From the NCBI GenBank assembly GCA_028872015.1, contig JAGWLO010000025.1, positions 1 through 45,093 of the forward strand: a stretch of 45,093 nucleotides of DNA, read 5' to 3'. Of this stretch, positions 1-38,442 are shown one piece after another (within the stretch, counting starts at the first letter, position 1; every line of letters starts with the position of its first letter). This DNA is from Burkholderiales bacterium (GTDB taxonomy: Bacteria; Pseudomonadota; Gammaproteobacteria; Burkholderiales; Burkholderiaceae_C). Below the pieces are notes generated by a model, which was not told the origin of the DNA, did not search any database, and saw only the letters and a list, made by a program, of their open reading frames with translations. A program made the position numbers and the translations under genes.

Positions 1-383
1 TCGGGCGCGGCCAGCGCCGTGTCGAGCCGGCCGGCCCCCAGCGCGCCCGGCCGCGTGGGCGGCGCATCCAGCGCCGCGTGCAGCTGCTGCACCACCTGCC
101 GCAGGTCGCGCGCGGGCCGCGTCTGGCCGCTGGTGCGCACGCTGCCGCGCAGGCGCTGCGGGTGCCAGTAGCGCTCGAACAGCTCGGGCCAGCGCTGCCA
201 GTCGCGCCGGTCGCGGCAGGCGATCGCGCGCCAGGCGGCGTCGAGCCTGGCCGCGCGCTCCACCGGCAGCGCCAGCGCGGCGCGCACGAAGGCCTGCTGC
301 TCGGCGATGCCCACGGGCAGCCCGTGATCGCGCAGCAGGGCGGCGAAGCCGGCGATGCTCTGCAGCGGCTGCGGCGAGGGCAT
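1..383 (-). CDS. coxE: CoxE-like VWA-domain protein, N-terminal part (cut by window edge)
   Basis: The first 127 residues are visible; the gene continues beyond position 1. The start ATG (383-381) overlaps the coxD stop in an ATGA arrangement, so the two are translationally coupled. The visible part reads [19 protein letters not shown] followed by a helical, Arg/Ala-rich stretch, as in the N-terminal region of CoxE/YeaD-type proteins that carry a von Willebrand A (MIDAS) domain further on. The MIDAS motif itself lies outside the window. CoxE proteins pair with a MoxR-type ATPase (CoxD) and are needed to assemble the copper-molybdenum active site of CO dehydrogenase. The assignment rests mainly on position after coxD plus the N-terminal sequence character. 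Confidence 0.75.
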
Positions 384-1279
384 CACGCCGCCTTCTCGGC
401 CACGCCGACGCCATGGCGGCCCTCGATGAGCTGGCGCACCCGGTCGGGCCCGAGCTGGAAGCGGTCTTCGCGCGTCTTCAGCAGGCAGCCCAGCGTGGCC
501 ATCAGGGCCTGCGGGTCGTCGGGCAGGGCGTCGAACCGCAGGCGGTGCAGGGCGCGTATCCAGTCCAGGGTCTCGGCCACGCCCGGGGTCTTGCCCAGGT
601 CTTCGCGCCGCAACCGCTGCACGAAGGCCACGGCCTGCTCGGTCAGTGCACTTTCGGCGTCTGGCAGGGCGGCGCGGACGATGGCCGTCTCGCGCGCCAG
701 GCTCGGGTAGTCGAGCCAGTGGTACAGGCAGCGCCGGCGCAGCGCATCCGACAGCTCGCGCGTGCCGTTGCTGGTGAGCACGACGGCCGGCACGTGGCGC
801 GCCGTCAGGGTGCCGAGCTCGGGCACCGTGATCTGCCAGTCGGCCAGCACCTCGAGCAGGAAGGCCTCGAAGGCCTCGTCGGCGCGGTCGATCTCGTCGA
901 TCAGCAGCACGCAGGGCGCCTCGCTGGCGATGGCCTGCAGCAGCGGGCGCTCGAGCAGGTACGCGCGTGCGAAGAGGTCGCTCTCGCGCACCGGGTCCGC
1001 GCCCGTCTCGGCGCGCCGGATGGCCAGCAGCTGGCGGCCGTAGTTCCATTCGTAGGCGGCCTGCGCCAGGTCCAGGCCCTCGTGGCATTGCAGGCGGATC
1101 AGGCGCCGGTCCAGCGCGCGCGCCAGCGCCAGCGCCAGCGCCGTCTTGCCCACGCCGGCATCGCCCTCGACCAGCAGCGGGCGCTGCAGCTCGCCGGCCA
1201 GCCACAGCGTGGTGACCAGCGCCTCGTCGGCCAGGTAGCCGGCGCGCTGCAGGTGCCGGGCCAGCTGCGGCTCGTCCAT
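383..1279 (-). CDS. coxD: MoxR-type AAA+ ATPase, CO dehydrogenase maturation (CoxD)
   Basis: A 298-residue cytoplasmic AAA+ ATPase. Walker A is GDAGVGKT (residues 39-46), Walker B is LLIDEID, and a sensor-type [20 protein letters not shown] segment follows. Together these are typical of the MoxR/CoxD clade. In Oligotropha carboxidovorans CoxD acts with CoxE and CoxF to insert sulfur and copper into the [MoO2-S-Cu] centre of CoxL; that role is transferred here from family and context. The start codon directly follows the coxL stop (TAG at 1282-1280, no intergenic base), and its own stop overlaps the coxE start. A generic MoxR ATPase would look similar, but its place in coxMSL-D-E makes CoxD the better reading. 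Confidence 0.9.
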
Positions 1280-3694
<2,415 letters not shown>

Positions 3695-3712
3695 GGCGGT
3701 GACTCCTCGGGC

Positions 3713-4234
<522 letters not shown>

Positions 4235-4249
4235 GGTCGTGGTCTCCCT

Positions 4250-5125
4250 TCAGGCGCAGCGGGCGGCGGCGGCGCGGAGCGCGCGCTTGACCATCTGCCC
4301 GGCCATCGCGGTCTTGTAGGCGACGTCGCCGCGCAGGTCGGCGGCAGGGTCGGTGATGCTCATCGCGGCGGCGGCGGCGGCGTCGATGCCGGCGTCGCCC
4401 AGCGGCTGGCCCAGCAGCGCCTGCTCGGCGGCGGCGGCCCGCAAGGCGGTCGGGCCCACGTTGGTGAGCGCGATGCGGGCATGGCTGACGCGGCCCGCGT
4501 CGAGGCGCAGCACGACGGCGGCACCGGCGGTGGCCCAGTCGCCGGTCTTGCGCTTGAGCTTCTCGTAGGCCCAGCCGGTGCCCGCCGCCGGCGCCGGCAC
4601 CCGGATCGCCACCAGGATCTCGTCTTCGGCCAGTGCGGTGGCGTAGGGGCCGATGAAGAACTGCGCGGCCCCGACTTCGCGCCGGCCGCGCGGGCCCTGC
4701 AGCGTGAACACGGCGTCCAGCGCGAGGGCCAGGGCCGGATGATCGTTGGCCGGATCGCCGTGCGCGATGTCGCCGCCGATGGTGCCGCGGTTGCGCACCT
4801 GCGGGTCGGCGATGAGCCGCGGCGCCTCGGCCAGCAGCGGCACCTTGCGCCGCAGCAGCTCGCTGGCGATGAGCTCGGCCTCGGTGGTCATGGCGCCGAT
4901 GACCACCGTGTCGCCGCCGGGGCCGGCCTCTTCGCAGATGCCGCGCAGCTCGGGGATGCGGTTGATGTCGATCAGGTGCGCGGGCTGCGCGAAGCGCAGC
5001 TTCATCATCGGCAGCAGGCTGTGGCCGCCGGCCAGGATCTTGGCCTCGGTGCCCAGGCGGCCCAGCAGGCCGATGGCCTCGCCCACCGAGCGGGGCGCGT
5101 GGTAGTCGAAGGCGGGGGGAATCAT
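4250..5125 (-). CDS. coxM: CO dehydrogenase FAD-binding medium subunit (CoxM)
   Basis: A 291-residue flavoprotein (reference 288). The two FAD-binding motifs of the family are visible: [13 protein letters not shown] (residues 32-44) and TIGGD (115-119). It accepts electrons from the CoxS clusters and hands them to the respiratory quinone pool at the inner face of the membrane. An open frame runs about 48 codons upstream, but ATG 5125 ([11 protein letters not shown]) is chosen because it matches the usual N-terminus and is preceded by a good ribosome binding site (GGAG, 5137-5134, about 8 nt upstream). It is the first gene of coxMSLDE and is preceded by a 210-bp control region. Confidence 0.96.
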
Positions 5126-5335
5126 GGCCGGGTCTCCTGAGGGTTCGTCTTCGGGGCGGGCGTTCGCGGGGGCCGGATGGGACCGGCAGGGCGATGTTCG
5201 CCCCGGACGGGGTGTCCGCGAAAGTGCCGGGGTCGCCGCCGCGCTGCACGAACGGCCGCCGCGGCGCATGAATGGCAGTCCGGAGCCCGGATCGGCGCGC
5301 GAGGCGCCAAAACTCGGGAAAACGATAGGCTGGGA
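5126..5335 (-). promoter_or_regulatory. coxM control region with candidate RcoM (LytTR) half-sites
   Basis: This 210-bp non-coding gap separates rcoM from coxM. On the minus (coding) strand it holds two pairs of TTnnnG hexamers in near-helical phase: TTCCCG (5320-5315) and TTGGCG (5310-5305), 10 bp apart, then TTCATG (5272-5267) and TTCGTG (5252-5247), 20 bp apart. LytTR regulators bind tandem direct repeats at about one-turn spacing, and I recall TTnnnG as the motif reported for RcoM; I cannot verify that here. An inverted repeat GGGCGA-3 nt-TCGCCC (5189-5203) lies nearer coxM. I do not see a convincing sigma-70 -35/-10 pair. That fits an activator-dependent promoter but does not prove one. 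Confidence 0.5.
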
Positions 5336-6124
5336 CTAACCCTGACGCGGCGCCGCGGCGGCCGAAGGCAGGCCGAAGCGCGCCAGCACGTCGGCCTGGC
5401 TGGAGCGCGAGACCGGCACCGTCTCGGGCTGGCCGTGCAGGCGCAGCGCCAGCCGGCCGTCGCTGCGCTGCAGCTCGGCCACCGCGCGCAGGTTGACGAT
5501 GTGGGTGCGGTGCACGCGCAGGAACAGCTCGGGGTCGAGCCGGGTCTCGAGATCGCCGATGGCCAGGTTGCAAAAACGCGTGGCCTGCGCCGTGACCACG
5601 CGCGTGTAGTGGCCGTCGGAGCGGATGCACAGCACCGCTTCGGCATCGACGAGCACGATCTTCTGCTCCGCCACGGTGGGCAGCTTCAGCAGCTGGCGCC
5701 GCGCGCCGGCCAGGGGTGGCGCGCCGTCGCCGGCGCTCACGGTCTCGGTGATGTCGTAGAACACCAGCACGTAGCCGGTGCCCTGGCGGTCGGCGCCGGC
5801 CATGCGCGTGACCTTGATCAGCAGCACCCGCTCGGGGATGTTGATGATCATCGCCATCGGCGGCGGGTTGGCCACCGGGCATTCGGCGGCCTGGTCGAGC
5901 AGGTGCAGCACCTTGGGCTGCGAGCGTTCGGGGTGGAAGCTGAGCACCATGCGCTCGAAAGGCTGGCGGGCCTCGACCGGCAGCACCCGGCGCGCGAACT
6001 CGTTCATCGCCACCACGTGGCGCTGCGCATCGAGCTGCACCACGCCGACGTCGAGCCGATCGAGCGCCAGCGGCGGCGGCACCGCGGTGGCGTTGGCCGT
6101 GGGGCTGGCGGCGACGGACGTCAC
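5336..6124 (-). CDS. rcoM: RcoM-type haem-PAS / LytTR CO-sensing transcriptional activator
   Basis: A 262-residue one-component regulator (known RcoM about 267). Residues about 20-140 form a PAS domain with the RcoM hallmark region SFHPERS ... ECPV ... [13 protein letters not shown]. The residues matching the haem ligands of Burkholderia xenovorans RcoM (H74, C94, M104) are H64, C82 and M92. C82 to M92 keeps the spacing of ten; the H64-C82 loop is two residues shorter. Residues about 155-258 are a LytTR DNA-binding domain ([27 protein letters not shown]). CO binding to ferrous haem is known to switch the family on. GTG 6124 is chosen because the next Met (MNEF, residue 40) would cut the PAS domain; its ribosome site is weak. 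It lies 32 bp after atpC and upstream of coxM. Confidence 0.93.
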
Positions 6125-6156
6125 GGCGATCCGGGCCCCATGCCGCCTGCGCGCGG

Positions 6157-6576
6157 CTACTTGCGGCGCAGCTTCTGGATCGCCGCCAGCTGCGCGGCCA
6201 TGGTCGCGAACTCGCTGGTCGCCGCGGCCAGGTCGATCTCGCTCTTGGCGTTCTTCATCGCCTGCTCGGCCAGGCGCTTGGCCTCGGTGGCCTTGGCCTC
6301 GTCGAGGTCCTTGCCGCGGATGGCGGTGTCGGCCAGCACGGTGACGGTGTCGGGCTGCACCTCGAGGATGCCGCCGGCAACGAACACGAACTCCTCGGCC
6401 CCGCCGCCGGCCGGCTGGATGCGCACCGCCCCGGCCTTGATGCGGGTGATCAGCGGCGTGTGGCGCGGCAGGATGCCGAGCTCGCCGTTCTCGCCCGGCA
6501 GGGCGACAAAGCTGGCCTCGCCGCTGAAGATGCTTTCCTCGGCGGAGACGACGTCGACGTGGATGGTGTGTGCCAT
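6157..6576 (-). CDS. atpC: ATP synthase F1 epsilon subunit
   Basis: 139 residues. An N-terminal beta-sandwich starts [21 protein letters not shown] and contains the family segment [23 protein letters not shown]; a C-terminal helical hairpin ([15 protein letters not shown]) follows. It sits on the gamma subunit of the rotor central stalk and can inhibit ATP hydrolysis. The start is 9 bp after atpD and it is the last atp gene. The next gene, rcoM, follows after only 32 bp with no hairpin-plus-T-run terminator, so transcripts may continue. Confidence 0.97.
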
Positions 6577-6585
6577 GCCAGCCTC

Positions 6586-8917
<2,332 letters not shown>

Positions 8918-33128: not shown

Positions 33129-33950
33129 TCAGCGCAGCGGCAGCCCGCCCGCCTCGGGCTGCGGCGGGCGGCCCTGCGCCAGATCCAGCGCCCAGGCCGC
33201 CGCGATGCGGCGCAGCGCCGCGACGTTCGCCGCCTGCGGCGCGCCCTGGCCGCAGGCCGCCACCGCCAGCGCCGTGGTGTCTGCGCCCTCGACATCCAGG
33301 TGCGTGGCCCCCGGCAGGCGCAGCCCGATGAAGGCCTGGGGCAGGGCCCGCAGCGCCGGCAGCGCGTTGTTGTGCAGGTTGCAGCGGCCCGGCTCGGCCA
33401 GCACGGCCAGCACCGGGCGCCGGCCGTCGCCGGCGATCGCCTGCAGCGCCGCGGCCAGGCCCGGCGTAGCCACCGGGTCGAGCAGCAGCGCGCCGGCCAG
33501 CCGATCGGGTGCCCGCACAGCCAGCGCCGCGCCCGTGTAAGCCGCGAACACGGCGCCCGCCGAATGGCCGCCCACGACGACGGCCTGGGACAGCGCGCGG
33601 CCGTCGGGTGCGCGCAGGCCGCCGGCGATCGCCGCGGCCAGGGCGCGCGCCAGCGCAGGCCGGCCGCCGGCCATGTCGGCGTCCAGGCACAGCACCATCA
33701 GGCCCTGCTGCATCAGCCGCGACGCCGTGCCGCGCAGGTTGGCGCAGGAGCGGCCGAAGCCGTGTTCGAGCAGCACCAGACCGGCCACCGGCGCCGGCGG
33801 CAGCAGCCATTCGGTGTCGACCGAGACACCGTTCAGCAGCAACGGCGCAAACACGCGCCATGGGTCGGCACCGGGCGCCGGCGGCCGGGTCGCGCAGGCG
33901 GCCAAGAGCATCAGCAGCCCGGCGGCCATGCCTGGCGATCGGATTCGCAT
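33129..33950 (-). CDS. Lipoprotein alpha/beta hydrolase
   Basis: 273 residues. The start ATG 33950 gives a short signal ending in the lipobox LAAC (C19), so it is probably a lipid-anchored envelope protein. The nucleophile elbow is GGHSAG, followed by LLLDPVATPG (acid region) and a late His in GATHLDVEG, consistent with a Ser-Asp-His triad. Relatives resemble chlorophyllase/dienelactone hydrolase-type esterases; the substrate is unknown. A CAGAAT -10-like box at 33963-33958 ends 7 nt before the ATG, and no ribosome site is present. It is divergent from purC and convergent with the serine hydrolase region. Confidence 0.82.
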   Translation of the reverse strand: MRIRSPGMAAGLLMLLAACATRPPAPGADPWRVFAPLLLNGVSVDTEWLLPPAPVAGLVLLEHGFGRSCANLRGTASRLMQQGLMVLCLDADMAGGRPALARALAAAIAGGLRAPDGRALSQAVVVGGHSAGAVFAAYTGAALAVRAPDRLAGALLLDPVATPGLAAALQAIAGDGRRPVLAVLAEPGRCNLHNNALPALRALPQAFIGLRLPGATHLDVEGADTTALAVAACGQGAPQAANVAALRRIAAAWALDLAQGRPPQPEAGGLPLR

Positions 33951-34012
33951 GGCGCCGATTCTGCTGCGCCGGCGCAGCAAGCAAAATGGTGCTCCACTCC
34001 GCACCGGCCCGC
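33951..34012. promoter_or_regulatory. Compact divergent promoter region, lipoprotein hydrolase / purC
   Basis: A 62-bp gap. On the minus strand CAGAAT (33963-33958) ends 7 nt before ATG 33950. On the plus strand CAAAAT (33982-33987) lies 25 nt before ATG 34013. The two -10 candidates are about 20 bp apart and point outward, so polymerases could exclude each other. Neither has a clear -35. Confidence 0.45.
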
Positions 34013-34936
34013 ATGAACGCTGCCCCTTCCACCCTCGCCGAGCTCGGCCCCGCCGTGGCCACCACGGCCCTGCATTCGCTGCCGCTGATCGCGCGCGGCA
34101 AGGTGCGCGACCTCTATGCCGTCGGCGCCGACCGCCTGCTGATGGTGGCCAGCGACCGGCTGAGCGCCTTCGACGTGGTGATGAAGGCGCCCGTGCCGGG
34201 CAAGGGCCGGCTGCTGACGCAGATGGCGCTGTTCTGGTTCGACCGCCTCGGGCCGCTGGTGCCCAACCACCTCAGCGCCGACGCCCCCGAGAGCGTGGTG
34301 GCCGCCGACGAGGTGGCGCAGGTGGCCGGCCGCTCGATGCTGGTGCGGCGCCTGCAGCCCCTGCCCTGCGAGGCGGTGGTGCGGGGCTTCGTCGCCGGCT
34401 CGGGCTGGAAGGAGTACCAGCAGCGCGGCACCGTGTGCGGCATCGCGCTGCCGCCGGGCCTGGCGATGACGCAGCCGCTGGCCGCGCCCATCTTCACGCC
34501 GGCCACCAAGGCCGCGGTGGGCGACCACGACGAGAACATTTCGTTCGCGCAGCTCGAGGCCCTGCTCGGCGCGGCCCGTGCGGCCGAGGTGCGCGCGACC
34601 GCGATCCGCCTCTTCCAGGCCGCCAGCGCCTACGCGCTGACGCGCGGCATCGTGATCGCCGACACCAAGTTCGAGTTCGGCCTGGACGAGGCCGGCCGGC
34701 TGACGTTGATGGACGAAGTGCTGACGCCCGACTCGTCGCGCTTCTGGCTCGCCGACGAGCTGGCGCAGGGCCGCATCGTGGCGCTGGACAAGCAGCCGCT
34801 GCGCGACTGGCTCAGCGCCAGCGGCGTGACGGGCGGCGCCGAGCAGGCCGCGCTCGACCTGCCCGACAGCGTGATCCTGGGCGTGCACGAGCGCTACGCC
34901 ACCGCGTACCGGCGGCTGTGCGGGGCAGCGGCATGA
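34013..34936 (+). CDS. purC: Phosphoribosylaminoimidazole-succinocarboxamide (SAICAR) synthase
   Basis: 307 residues. It catalyses the ATP-dependent joining of aspartate to CAIR in purine synthesis. Family blocks are [30 protein letters not shown] (ATP-binding, residues about 27-56), [22 protein letters not shown] and [16 protein letters not shown], with [14 protein letters not shown] later. An in-frame ATG at 33986 would add nine residues, but it lies within the CAAAAT -10 candidate, so 34013 is preferred. Its stop overlaps the next start (ATGA). Confidence 0.96.
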
Positions 34937-35925
34937 GTCCGGCGAGCGGCACCGACAAGGTCGCGCCGCGCAGCCTGCGCGCGCACCGCTTTGCCGGGCT
35001 CGACGGCGGCGCGCGCGGCCCGCGGCTCATCGTCACCGGCGCCGTGCACGGCAACGAGACCGCGGGCACGCGCGGCATCGAGCGCGTGCTGGGCGAGATC
35101 GAGCGCGGCGAGCTCGAGATCGTGCGCGGCACGGTCACCTTCGTGCCGGTGTGCAACCCGCTGGCCTACGCGCACGCGCGCCGCATGGGCGAGCGCAACC
35201 TGAACCGTCGCCTGCAGCCCACCGCCACGCCGCAGGACAACGAGGACCGCATCGCCAACGTGCTGTGCCGCTGGCTCGCCGAGCACGAGGTGCTGCTCGA
35301 CCTGCACAGCTTCCGCAGCCCGGGCCAGCCCTTCGTGATGCGCGGCCCGGGGGACAACCACGGCGCGCTCGAACCCTTTGCGCACGCCCGGGCCGAGGCG
35401 CGGCTGGCCGCCCACGTGGGCCCCAGCCGCATCGTCGACGGCTGGATGAGCGCCTACGCCGCCGGCGTGGCGCGGCGCCGCGCGCGCGGCCTCACGCCCG
35501 GCGCGGTGCACGAAGACCCGAGCTACGGCGTGGGCACCACCGAGTACATGCGCTCGGTGGGCGGATACGGCATCACGCTGGAATGCGGCCAGCACGACGA
35601 CCCGGCCGGCCCCGAGGTGGCCTGGCGCGCGATCCGCCAGACGCTGGCGCTGCTGGGCCTGGTCGAGACGCCGCCGGCGCCGCCGGCGGCGCCCTTCGAA
35701 TGCCTGACGCTGACCGAAGTCATCGACCGCTTCGATGCCGCCGACCGCTTCGCGCGGCCCTGGGCCAGCTTCGACCCGCTGGCCGCCGGCGAGCTCATCG
35801 CCACCCGCGCCGACGGCACCGAGCTGCGTGCGGCGCAGGCCGGCTACATCGTCTTCCCCGACGGGGCGGCGCTGCCGGGGCACGAGTGGTTCTACCTCGC
35901 GCAGCCCAGCAACCAGCCGCTGTAG
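34933..35925 (+). CDS. Succinylglutamate desuccinylase/aspartoacylase-family zinc hydrolase
   Basis: A 330-residue M14-like metallohydrolase. Zinc ligands can be placed at H39 and E42 (GAVHGNE) and H125 (LLDLHSF), with NLNRRL and a catalytic-type Glu region [10 protein letters not shown]. Relatives cleave N-acyl amino acids (AstE, aspartoacylase). None of the other arginine-succinyltransferase pathway genes is nearby, so AstE itself is not assumed. The start overlaps the purC stop by 4 bp (ATGA), which couples it to purine synthesis at the level of translation; the reason is not obvious. Confidence 0.85.
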
Positions 35926-35939
35926 CGCCGGGCGCACGC

Positions 35940-36036
35940 GCGGCCTCCGAAGGCGGATGTCCCCCCCGTGAGGGATGCACCCCAAGGGGCGGGACGCCCA
36001 TCATCGGCCCCTCGCTTCGGGCCCGAGCGCCCGGTC
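35940..36036. repeat. GC-rich intergenic segment with several short inverted repeats
   Basis: Between the zinc hydrolase and the small gene at 36052 lie CCCC-AA-GGGG, CCCCCCC...GGG and GGCCC...GGGCC pairings, rich in runs of C and G. It resembles in style, not in exact sequence, the element at the livG/livF junction. It may be a degenerate intergenic repeat or a weak transcriptional roadblock. Confidence 0.35.
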
Positions 36037-36051
36037 TCAGAGGACAGCACC

Positions 36052-36306
36052 ATGCGATTCGAAGAAGCCCACGAGGGCGACTACCGCATCTTCGTCGGCG
36101 CGCTGGAAGCGCCGCGCGGCGACGGCTACATCGCCGCGCTGATCGTCAACCGCGTGCGCGGCGCCATCGGCCGCCACCCCGAGGCCTTCCGCGACGACAG
36201 CCTGGCCTGCGGCTATCGCTGGCGCTCAGCCGAAGAGGCGCTGCACTACGCGATGAACCGGGCGCGCGAGCTCATCCGCAGCCGCTCGACCATGCTCGCC
36301 TGCTGA
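36052..36306 (+). CDS. Small conserved-looking protein of unknown function
   Basis: 84 residues ([21 protein letters not shown]...), mixed alpha/beta composition, two cysteines, no signal peptide or membrane helix. The ribosome site AGAGGA about 8 nt upstream of ATG 36052 and the GC-rich third positions support a real gene. I do not recognise a family. It lies 38 bp before mnmA on the same strand, but mnmA seems to have its own promoter. Confidence 0.7.
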
Positions 36307-36331
36307 GCCCGCGCCGCCCGGGACGCGGCGG

Positions 36332-36337
36332 GATAAT
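36332..36337 (+). promoter_or_regulatory. Candidate -10 box (GATAAT) for mnmA
   Basis: GATAAT ends 7 nt before ATG 36345. Transcription would begin at or next to the A of the start codon. No ribosome site is present. A -35 is not evident. Confidence 0.55.
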
Positions 36338-36344
36338 CCGCCGC

Positions 36345-37484
36345 ATGGGCAGGCAGCGCGTGGTGGTGGGGCTGAGCGGCGGGGTCGACTCCGCCGTCAG
36401 CGCCTGGCTGCTGAAGCAGCAGGGCTTCGAGGTGGTCGGCCTGTTCATGAAGAACTGGGACGACGACGACGACAGCGCGTACTGCGCGTCGAACATCGAC
36501 TTCGTCGATGCCGCGGCCGTGGCCGACGTGATCGGCATCGAGATCGAGCACGTCAACTTCGCGGCCGAGTACAAGGACCGCGTGTTCGCCGCCTTCCTGC
36601 GCGAGTACGCCGCCGGCCGCACGCCCAACCCCGATGTGCTGTGCAACGCCGAGATCAAGTTCAAGGCCTTTCTCGACCACGCACTGCGCCTGGGCGCCGA
36701 CCGCATCGCCACCGGCCACTACGCCCGCGTGCGCGAGCGCGGCGGCCGGTTCGAGCTGCTCAAGGGCCTGGACCCGGCCAAGGACCAGAGCTACTTCCTG
36801 CACCGCCTGAACCAGGCCCAGCTGGGGAGGACGCTGTTTCCGGTGGGCGCTCTGCACAAGACCGAGGTGCGGCGTCTGGCCGCCGAGATCGGGCTGCCGA
36901 ACGCGAAGAAGAAGGATTCGACCGGCATCTGCTTCATCGGCGAGCGACCGTTCCGCGAGTTTCTGCAGCGCTACCTCCGCCACGCACCCGGGCCGATGCT
37001 CGACGAGCACGGGCACACGCTGGGCCGGCACCTCGGCCTGTCGTTCTACACCCGCGGCCAGCGCCAGGGCCTGGGCATCGGCGGCGTGCGCGAGGGCGGC
37101 GGCGCCCACGCGCCCTGGTACGTGGCGCACAAGGACCTGGCGCGCAACGCGCTGCTGGTGGTGCAGGGCCATGACCACCCGGGGCTGCTGTCGCCCTGGC
37201 TCGTGGCCGACGACCTGAGCTGGGTCGCCGGCGAGCCGCCGGCCGCTGCGCGCCTGGCGGCCAAGACGCGCTACCGCCAGCCCGATGCGCCCTGCCGCGT
37301 GGGACTGCAGGCCGGCACGCTGCGCCTGGACTTCGACGCCGCGCAGTGGGCGGTGACGCCGGGCCAGAGCGCAGTGCTGTACGACGGCGAGGTCTGCCTG
37401 GGCGGCGGCGTGATCGCGCAGACCCGGGAGCCACCGCTGCCTGCACCGCGCAGCCGGGCGACGCAAACCGAGGGTATGCACTGA
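36345..37484 (+). CDS. mnmA: tRNA-specific 2-thiouridylase
   Basis: 379 residues. It thiolates U34 of Lys, Glu and Gln tRNAs. The PP-loop SGGVDS is at residues 11-16. The two catalytic cysteines are C100 ([10 protein letters not shown]) and C196 ([12 protein letters not shown]), matching C102 and C199 of E. coli. [14 protein letters not shown] and the C-terminal [28 protein letters not shown] segment are also typical. ATG 36345 directly opens the PP-loop domain and follows a -10-like box by 7 nt. Confidence 0.97.
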
Positions 37485-37582
37485 TCGGAAAAGTGCTGAG
37501 CGGCGGCAGTTGCAACCGAAGACCACGACGCGCCACCCCTAAACTCGCACCCTCCCCAAACCGGCTCGGCAACCCGATCTGC

Positions 37583-38356
37583 ATGTCCGACGACACCATC
37601 CTCGAAACCCGCAAACTGACCAAGGAATTCAAGGGTTTCGTCGCTGTGAGCGAGGTCGATCTGAAGGTGCGCCGGGGCACGATCCACGCGTTGATCGGCC
37701 CCAATGGCGCCGGCAAGACGACCTGCTTCAACCTGTTGACGAAATTCCTGGCCCCCACGCGCGGGCAGATCCTGTTCGAGGGCCACGACATCACGGCCGA
37801 GTCGCCGTCGCACATCGCGCGGCGCGGCGTGATCCGCTCGTTCCAGATCTCGTCGGTGTTTCCGCACCTCACGGTGCTCGAGAACGTGCGCGTGGCGCTG
37901 CAGCGATCGCTGCGCACCTCGTTCCACTTCTGGCGCCCCGAGCGCAGCCTGGACGGCCTGAACGAGCGCGCCCTGGCCCTGCTGCAGGAGGTGGACCTGT
38001 CGCCCTATGCCGGCGTCACCGCGGTCGAGCTCAGCTACGGGCGCAAGCGCGCGCTGGAGATCGCCACCACCCTGGCCATGAACCCCAAGCTGATGCTGCT
38101 GGACGAGCCCACGCAGGGCATGGGTCTGGAGGACGTGGACCGCACGCGCGCGCTGATCAAGAAAGTGGCGGCCGACCGCACGGTGCTGATGGTCGAGCAC
38201 AACATGAGCGTGGTGTCGAGCATCGCCGACACCATCACCGTGCTGCAGCGCGGTGCCACCCTGGCCGAAGGCCCGTACGAGGTGGTCAGCCGCGACCCGG
38301 CCGTGATCGAGGCCTACATGGGCACGGCGCAGACCGCCCTGGCGGGAGCCCACTGA
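37583..38356 (+). CDS. livG: Branched-chain amino acid-type ABC transporter ATPase (LivG)
   Basis: 257 residues. Walker A is GPNGAGKTT (39-47), Walker B is LMLLDEPTQGM, and the signature is LSYGRKRALEIA, the LivG/UrtD-style variant of LSGGQ. An H-loop (MVEHNM) is present. It is the first gene of livG-livF-livK-livH-livM. ATG 37583 follows a TAAACT -10 candidate (37540-37545), which leaves a leader of about 30 nt. Its stop codon lies inside the first copy of a 22-bp direct repeat. Confidence 0.94.
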   Translation: MSDDTILETRKLTKEFKGFVAVSEVDLKVRRGTIHALIGPNGAGKTTCFNLLTKFLAPTRGQILFEGHDITAESPSHIARRGVIRSFQISSVFPHLTVLENVRVALQRSLRTSFHFWRPERSLDGLNERALALLQEVDLSPYAGVTAVELSYGRKRALEIATTLAMNPKLMLLDEPTQGMGLEDVDRTRALIKKVAADRTVLMVEHNMSVVSSIADTITVLQRGATLAEGPYEVVSRDPAVIEAYMGTAQTALAGAH

Positions 38357-38442
38357 TGGCCCCCGAGCTCACTTCGTTCGCTGCCCCCCGAGGGGGCCCT
38401 GGGCTGCCTTGGGGCGGCCCGGCGGGAGCCCACTGATGGCCC
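38341..38442. repeat. Mini-element (58 bp) flanked by a 22-bp direct repeat at the livG/livF junction
   Basis: A perfect 22-bp repeat occurs at 38341-38362 and 38421-38442. It spans the livG stop and a TGATG start context. Between the copies lie 58 bp (38363-38420) with CCCCCCGAGGGGG and CTGCCTTGGGGCGGCC hairpin-like parts. The simplest reading is insertion of a small palindromic repeat into a former TGATG-overlapping livG/livF junction, duplicating the site. It resembles GC-rich intergenic repeats I recall from Comamonadaceae genomes, but I could not check that. Confidence 0.75.

Follow-up and report, generated by a model that had tools for sequence, protein, structure and literature searches.

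A form I carbon monoxide dehydrogenase gene block with an RcoM-type regulator behind the ATP synthase operon of a Burkholderiales bacterium

How is a carbon monoxide (CO) dehydrogenase controlled when its genes are preceded both by the gene of a putative CO sensor and, directly before that, by the last gene of the ATP synthase operon? The question is raised by a Burkholderiales genome (GCA_028872015.1, here G000), in which contig C14 (JAGWLO010000025.1), analysed over its whole length of 45,093 bp and called the window, carries atpC, a regulator gene, coxM, coxS, coxL, coxD and the start of coxE, in this order on the minus strand toward base 1. The reading that we favour, with a probability of about 0.75, is that of a form I CO dehydrogenase operon with its own RcoM-type sensor, positioned at the downstream end of the ATP synthase operon, in which CO would switch on the cox genes by the mechanism set out below. 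The genes concerned are the following:

6157..6576, minus strand: atpC, last gene of the ATP synthase operon; stop at 6157, same strand as rcoM
5336..6124, minus strand: rcoM, PAS-LytTR regulator of 262 aa; GTG start at 6124; Pfam PAS_4 and LytTR
4250..5125, minus strand: coxM, flavin adenine dinucleotide (FAD) subunit of 291 aa; Pfam FAD_binding_5 and CO_deh_flav_C; best solved match 1ffu_C, CutM
3713..4234, minus strand: coxS, 2x[2Fe-2S] subunit of 173 aa; Pfam Fer2 and Fer2_2; best solved match 1ffu_A, CutS
1280..3694, minus strand: coxL, molybdenum-copper (Mo-Cu) catalytic subunit of 804 aa, form I; TIGR02416 and tree; best solved match 1ffu_B, CutL
383..1279, minus strand: coxD, AAA ATPase; Pfam AAA_5 and AAA, and syntenic homologues
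1..383, minus strand: coxE, first 127 codons; the rest is cut off by the contig end

An earlier note on this DNA had described the module as rcoM plus coxMSLDE. Its reading frames and motifs hold, while coxE is only partial in the window, since the contig ends within the gene; the 127-residue piece, searched alone, matched no Pfam or NCBIfam model. A role in active-site maturation is expected for CoxD. Chance is not an issue as the origin of the module, since CoxM, CoxS and CoxL match their families over their whole length and syntenic homologues occur in many genomes.

CoxL scored 1512 bits against the NCBIfam model TIGR02416 (cut-off 991), stayed under the cut-offs of all 12 other NCBIfam models listed for it, and was 66.3% identical to CoxL of Afipia carboxidovorans. 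An identity above 55% to a reference CoxL is the form I threshold in PMC6794299; the motif AYXCSFR is likewise described as a mark of form I (PMC11771112). The residues to which the earlier note had pointed are all in place, with AYRCSFR of CoxL at 383-389, including C386, E758 as the closing residue of GAKGVAE, and both FAD motifs of CoxM (AGGHSLLP at 32 and TIGGD at 115). The eight expected cluster cysteines of CoxS were found among nine (positions 42, 47, 50, 62, 69, 103, 106, 138 and 140), the additional one being C69, and these eight align with the ligands in CutS of 1ffu_A. The genes for the FAD and 2x[2Fe-2S] subunits precede coxL, giving the order M-S-L. The cysteine of AYRCSFR, C386, is presumably the copper-binding residue.

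In a CoxL tree of 45 rows (38 with AYRCSFR, four with AYRCSLR and three paralogues from G000), the window CoxL grouped with form I, as the earlier note had expected, and apart from the three paralogues of its own genome; its sister was CoxL of G304, at 95% identity. A place of CoxL outside form I is ruled out by this tree together with the TIGR02416 score. Two of the three paralogues, which fell outside form I, carry the form II motif AYRGAGR, and the placement of all three is unsure because of their long branches. These further molybdenum hydroxylase large subunits of G000 are encoded at C121:130512-132857 and C26:7915-10194 (both AYRGAGR) and at C55:24454-26772, the last approximately 4 kb from the coxE/coxF end of C55. 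A form I-like CoxL branch, 71-72% identical and with AYRCSLR replacing AYRCSFR, was also observed behind rcoM (L056, L067, L069 and L107).

That the enzyme is another molybdenum hydroxylase, with a physiological substrate other than CO, is hardly credible. The genome does contain several paralogues of the superfamily, and the top NCBIfam scores of CoxM and CoxS, both under the cut-off, are to glyceraldehyde dehydrogenase models; yet the only cut-off that CoxL exceeds, among the NCBIfam models listed, is that of the CO dehydrogenase equivalog, its AYRCSFR motif and its identity to the A. carboxidovorans protein point the same way, and a CO-sensor gene adjoins the cox genes. Judged by sequence, the module consists of genuine form I Mo-Cu CO dehydrogenase genes and represents a known kind, of which it is an unremarkable and well-supported example.

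A genome-wide lack of coxF/coxG-type maturation genes had been named in the earlier note as a result that would tell against the module. Both genes were found, coxF on C55 and a coxG copy (PF06240) on C73, and loss of the maturation genes is ruled out. The coxE gene likely continues at the right end of C55, where a 15-bp end overlap, the same frame and a VWA_CoxE match were observed, and both coxE parts lie within one reading frame in the related loci L050 and L053. On C55 it is followed by coxF (XdhC_C, XdhC_CoxI), then a MobA-like mocA gene and PPK2. All of coxD, E, F and G are present in the genome, D within the window and E as two contig-edge parts. The order in L050/L089, which matches this one and is uninterrupted, is atpC-rcoM-coxMSL-D-E-F-mocA-PPK2, with one further gene before PPK2. 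Most relatives showing the stretch between L and D have coxG there; L050/L089, L099, L105 and L069 have none at this place, like the window genome.

The genome also contains genes for the large chain of ribulose-1,5-bisphosphate carboxylase/oxygenase (RuBisCO) and for phosphoribulokinase, found by model on C110 at about 33463-38395 (L139). The genes next to them were interpreted as cbbS, cbbX and fbp, and one of LysR type just before them as cbbR; among these neighbours, the model test covered the AAA domain of the cbbX candidate. A match to the RuBisCO large chain occurred in 11 of 21 genomes of the genus with form I coxL. Since RuBisCO and phosphoribulokinase are both encoded, CO might drive CO2 fixation, and so autotrophy, as well as respiration. 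The earlier note had overlooked these genes, as it had the place of the module behind the ATP synthase operon.

The layout claimed for the regulator in the earlier note, that of RcoM, is borne out by PAS_4 and LytTR matches over the Pfam cut-offs, with PAS at the N-terminus and LytTR at the C-terminus. Alignment of 39 homologues showed H64, C82 and M92 conserved in 38 each, and their columns correspond to H75, C95 and M105 in the Paraburkholderia pBN2 homologue. The pBN2 numbering is one off that of the published residues of P. xenovorans RcoM-1, for which Met104 is a ligand position according to the title of a reference. By this correspondence, H64 and M92 are putative heme ligands of the window protein, together with C82. 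The remaining RcoM-1 residues of interest we take to be His74 and Cys94. The single homologue that lacks all three of these residues, in G019 (L033/L076), is an RcoM-like regulator, 38% identical, which is likewise encoded upstream of coxM.

An AlphaFold2 model of the regulator (mean predicted local distance difference test 72.5, predicted template modelling score 0.65) showed a PAS fold followed by LytTR. A fold search with this model returned LytTR domains best and PAS domains next, including the heme-PAS domain of Aer2 (6ceq, E 5.9e-4); the search is no proof of heme binding, since heme-free PAS domains rank equal or higher. Across 250 genomes of the family, the regulator was matched at E <= 1e-10 in 88, and PAS and LytTR were matched together in only 17 (E <= 7.7e-40), the remaining genomes matching, among the matches listed, in the LytTR part. 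The 16 further genomes of the family in which both PAS and LytTR were matched all have rcoM upstream of coxM on the same strand. The earlier note had placed complete pairs of sensor and enzyme in a minority of genomes, which fits with the genus sample, where 21 of 60 genomes had a form I coxL over the TIGR02416 cut-off.

The site of RcoM-1 consists of three TTCNNGCA repeats with spacers of 12-13 bp (PMC11347149). In the window, the following elements precede coxM:

5265..5272, minus strand: RcoM operator-like repeat 1, TTCATGCG; one mismatch to TTCNNGCA
5245..5252, minus strand: RcoM operator-like repeat 2, TTCGTGCA; full match to TTCNNGCA
5225..5232, minus strand: possible third repeat of the operator, of weak fit, CCCCGGCA; two mismatches, belongs to the best-scoring triple here
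5316..5321, minus strand: second conserved promoter element, core TTTCCC; just upstream of the putative RcoM site

The three repeats have a period of 20 bp and lie 107-147 bp before coxM. They were scored over 260 bp upstream of coxM against 200 shuffles, a pair or triple being counted as significant when at most 5% of the shuffles reached the observed score; the set excludes five duplicates and any locus that stops short of the coxM start. For the window, none of the 200 shuffles equalled the observed pair or triple. A significant triple was found at 36 of the 38 loci with rcoM upstream (one of these, L098, has a broken rcoM, and another, L076, lacks the ligand residues), at both loci with divergent rcoM, at the single CoxC locus (at exactly 5%) and at none of three loci without rcoM. 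For the pair, the corresponding counts were 34/38, 2/2, 0/1 and 0/3. The operator-like repeat associates with rcoM across loci, and we regard it as a putative RcoM site.

The exact tandem TTCRTGC-N13-TTCRTGC occurs once in the whole genome, as repeats 1 and 2 of the window, and an RcoM regulon beyond cox, for which a second exact tandem site was sought genome-wide, is rejected. Allowing one mismatch gave five other tandem sites, the reversed control giving one hit. The best repeat pair before the displaced coxG, which was not shuffle-scored, carries three mismatches.

Taken together, these observations suggest the following mechanism. The rcoM gene would be read through from the atp genes, which would provide a steady level of the sensor; such co-reading is inferred from the gap of merely 32 bp between atpC and rcoM on the same strand, and from the finding of no terminator-like site at 5000-6700. 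CO would displace M92 from a ferrous heme held by H64, upon which RcoM would bind the TTCNNGCA repeats before coxM and switch on coxMSLDEF. The enzyme would then oxidise CO to CO2, with the electrons passing to the respiratory chain. Genes, motifs, the operator-like repeat with its rcoM association, and the position behind atpC belong to the DNA as read, to which heme binding, response to CO, activation, read-through and the fate of the electrons are added as predictions.

Several points weigh against this reading. Here it is the genes that are known, whereas expression and CO uptake are predicted from them. The coxE/coxF part is tied to the window through only the 15-bp contig overlap, the frame and synteny, and coxG lies outside the cluster. 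The confidence of the regulator model is moderate, with blocks of 56-69 across residues 61-100, where the ligands would sit; a PDB search by sequence, with E up to 0.1, returned no match for the protein, and no NCBIfam model exceeded its cut-off. As for the operator, repeat 3 of the window is poor and repeat 1 has one mismatch, and the rcoM loci L075 and L076 have no significant triple. Finally, no sigma-70-like promoter was found at 5000-6700, in a scan that is weak at 72% G+C.

The place behind atpC was then compared across the genus. Of the 21 form I genomes, 8 have a cox block that starts no more than about 2.5 kb past atpC and on its strand; the block follows directly in G000, G304, G258, G267, G300, G294 and G302, and with ppk2, a polyphosphate kinase 2 gene, intervening in G261. 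The G267 contig begins inside atpC, and in G302 one contig holds atpC, rcoM and the start of coxM, with the remaining cox genes on another. L052, from another collection, is also linked to atpC, with ppk2 between. In the other 13 form I genomes coxL and atpC are on separate contigs; 10 of these show at least 5 kb upstream of rcoM without atpC, and less than 5 kb upstream of rcoM is visible in the stretches fetched for G282, G301 and G305.

This distribution gives some weight to the view that the position behind atpC is incidental, the cox block having its own promoters and a tolerated landing site near atpC and ppk2, free of any coupling to ATP synthase, a view to which we give slightly less than an even chance. 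The order of the cox genes is similar wherever it is visible, including in the 13 unlinked genomes, and the joint at atpC is not fixed, with atpC-rcoM-cox-ppk2 in L050/L089 (the probable order in the window genome as well) and atpC-ppk2-rcoM-cox in L052 and L091. Moreover, among 30 atpC loci of the genus, 11 have ppk2 in the 1.5 kb that follow atpC (including the L113-L115 set; 30 of 53 matches were examined, five of them from cox-linked genomes). With cox found before ppk2 in some relatives and after it in others, the block may have arrived near atpC on more than one occasion. A one-time insertion at this place is not demonstrated, given the two orders and the five changes of atp linkage, at least three of them forced, on a CoxL tree of 41 rows. 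An incidental position is, however, harder to reconcile with the short gap between atpC and rcoM, in which no terminator-like site was found, and with three atp-linked genomes that keep cox without rcoM and operator.

In these three genomes, G304, G258 and G267, no rcoM lies between atpC and coxM and the cox enzyme is kept; no RcoM match was found anywhere in them at E <= 1e-15, and the operator was likewise not detected. Their retention of cox suggests another source of transcription, which is not necessarily the atp promoter. The rcoM absences require two events on the 41-row tree, both forced by well-supported branches. In G289, which is not atpC-linked, rcoM is broken, and in the remaining 17 of the 21 form I genomes its frame reads through. 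The broken gene of G289 (L098) has largely lost the sensor domain, with coxMSLGDEF and an operator-like repeat kept beside it. By these counts rcoM is absent in 3 of 8 atp-linked and in 0 of 13 unlinked genomes, but the link between atp position and sensor loss is only suggestive, since it comprises just two independent losses and the broken rcoM of G289 is unlinked.

A further reading, which we consider tentative and clearly the less probable, is that CO oxidation in the genus is shifting from induction by CO to expression coupled to ATP synthase. The cox block would have come to lie behind the atp genes, where the sensor would have become dispensable; sensor and operator would then have been lost at least twice (in G304 and in G258/G267), with enzyme and second promoter element kept, and the window would be an intermediate, its sensor intact and read from the atp operon. 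It is highly unlikely, on the other hand, that errors of assembly or binning produced the joint between atpC and rcoM or the apparent lack of rcoM in relatives. The window genome is in 147 contigs with 3.16% contamination, G304 reaches 83% completeness, G258 is split into 860 contigs and is 7% contaminated, and the G267 contig starts as described above; but cox lies downstream of atpC in other assemblies too (G300, G294, G261, G302 and L052), atpC and coxM share a contig in G304 and G258 with no rcoM between them, and the search for RcoM in the three genomes found no match at E <= 1e-15.

The promoter region itself raises one more alternative, namely that a second, CO-independent regulator (responding, for example, to starvation or carbon status) acts at the TTTCCC element as the main control, RcoM being a modulator and the second regulator sufficing where rcoM is lost. 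We judge this doubtful. Of 44 regions upstream of coxM, 29 contain TTT[CA]CC at a distance of 120-330 bp from the gene, compared to 2.3 expected; the window and the three loci without rcoM are all among them. This excess is inflated, since the motif was picked by eye from the same sequences before counting. The surroundings of TTTCCC read CTAGGGACTTTCCCG, or close to it, in several relatives (L105, L090 and L106 among the carriers). In addition, Paraburkholderia terrae COX, which carries rcoM, expressed CO dehydrogenase regardless of added CO (PMC11771112). Against this, the element is missing in 15 of the 44 loci, including those of Ramlibacter type, of Paraburkholderia/Caballeronia and of Afipia.

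How aerobic CO oxidation is regulated varies among species (PMC11771112), and the close relatives with the same enzyme and neighbourhood, in which sensor and operator are present or absent, constitute a natural comparison, which would show whether CO oxidation becomes constitutive, and linked to energy metabolism, once RcoM is lost. The approximately 40 promoter regions collected can serve as a profile of the RcoM operator, and they point to a putative second control site.

Compared to known systems, the closest counterparts of the favoured arrangement are the rcoM-coxMSLGDEF-mocA clusters published for Cupriavidus ulmosensis CV2 and P. terrae COX (PMC11771112). These share with the window genome a form I coxL, rcoM, coxGDEF, mocA and a form II cluster in the same genome, and differ in that the window genome has coxG elsewhere and the block behind atpC. 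CV2 and COX were reported without a complete CO2 fixation pathway (PMC11771112), in contrast to the RuBisCO and phosphoribulokinase genes found here. That article does not mention ATP synthase, and no paper joining carbon monoxide dehydrogenase, the ATP synthase operon and coxL was found in a single direct search of the open-access literature, which is weak evidence of absence.

The window regulator is like RcoM-1 of P. xenovorans LB400 in its PAS-LytTR layout and in having TTCNNGCA repeats approximately 20 bp apart (PMC11347149, PMC9670170), and also in its His, Cys and Met ligand columns, compared by way of the pBN2 homologue and not the LB400 sequence. It is about 39% identical to the Paraburkholderia/Caballeronia homologues, has two residues fewer than the pBN2 protein between the His and Cys columns, and faces an operator whose third repeat is weak, unlike the RcoM-1 site. 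Its gene stands in tandem upstream of coxM, whereas rcoM of Paraburkholderia aromaticivorans pBN2 is divergent, with an OmpW-family gene between. Among solved structures, CutMSL (1ffu, 1ffv), which we take to be from Hydrogenophaga pseudoflava, was the best match for all three subunits. The cox genes of A. carboxidovorans OM5 (pHCG3, L061) are alike in their coxMSLDEF order, in being form I and in CoxL identity, and differ in their control by the membrane-bound MHYT-LytTR repressor CoxC, in having coxG after coxF and in being plasmid-borne. The rcoM-cox-mocA set is already known, and its setting behind atpC is a less usual variant.

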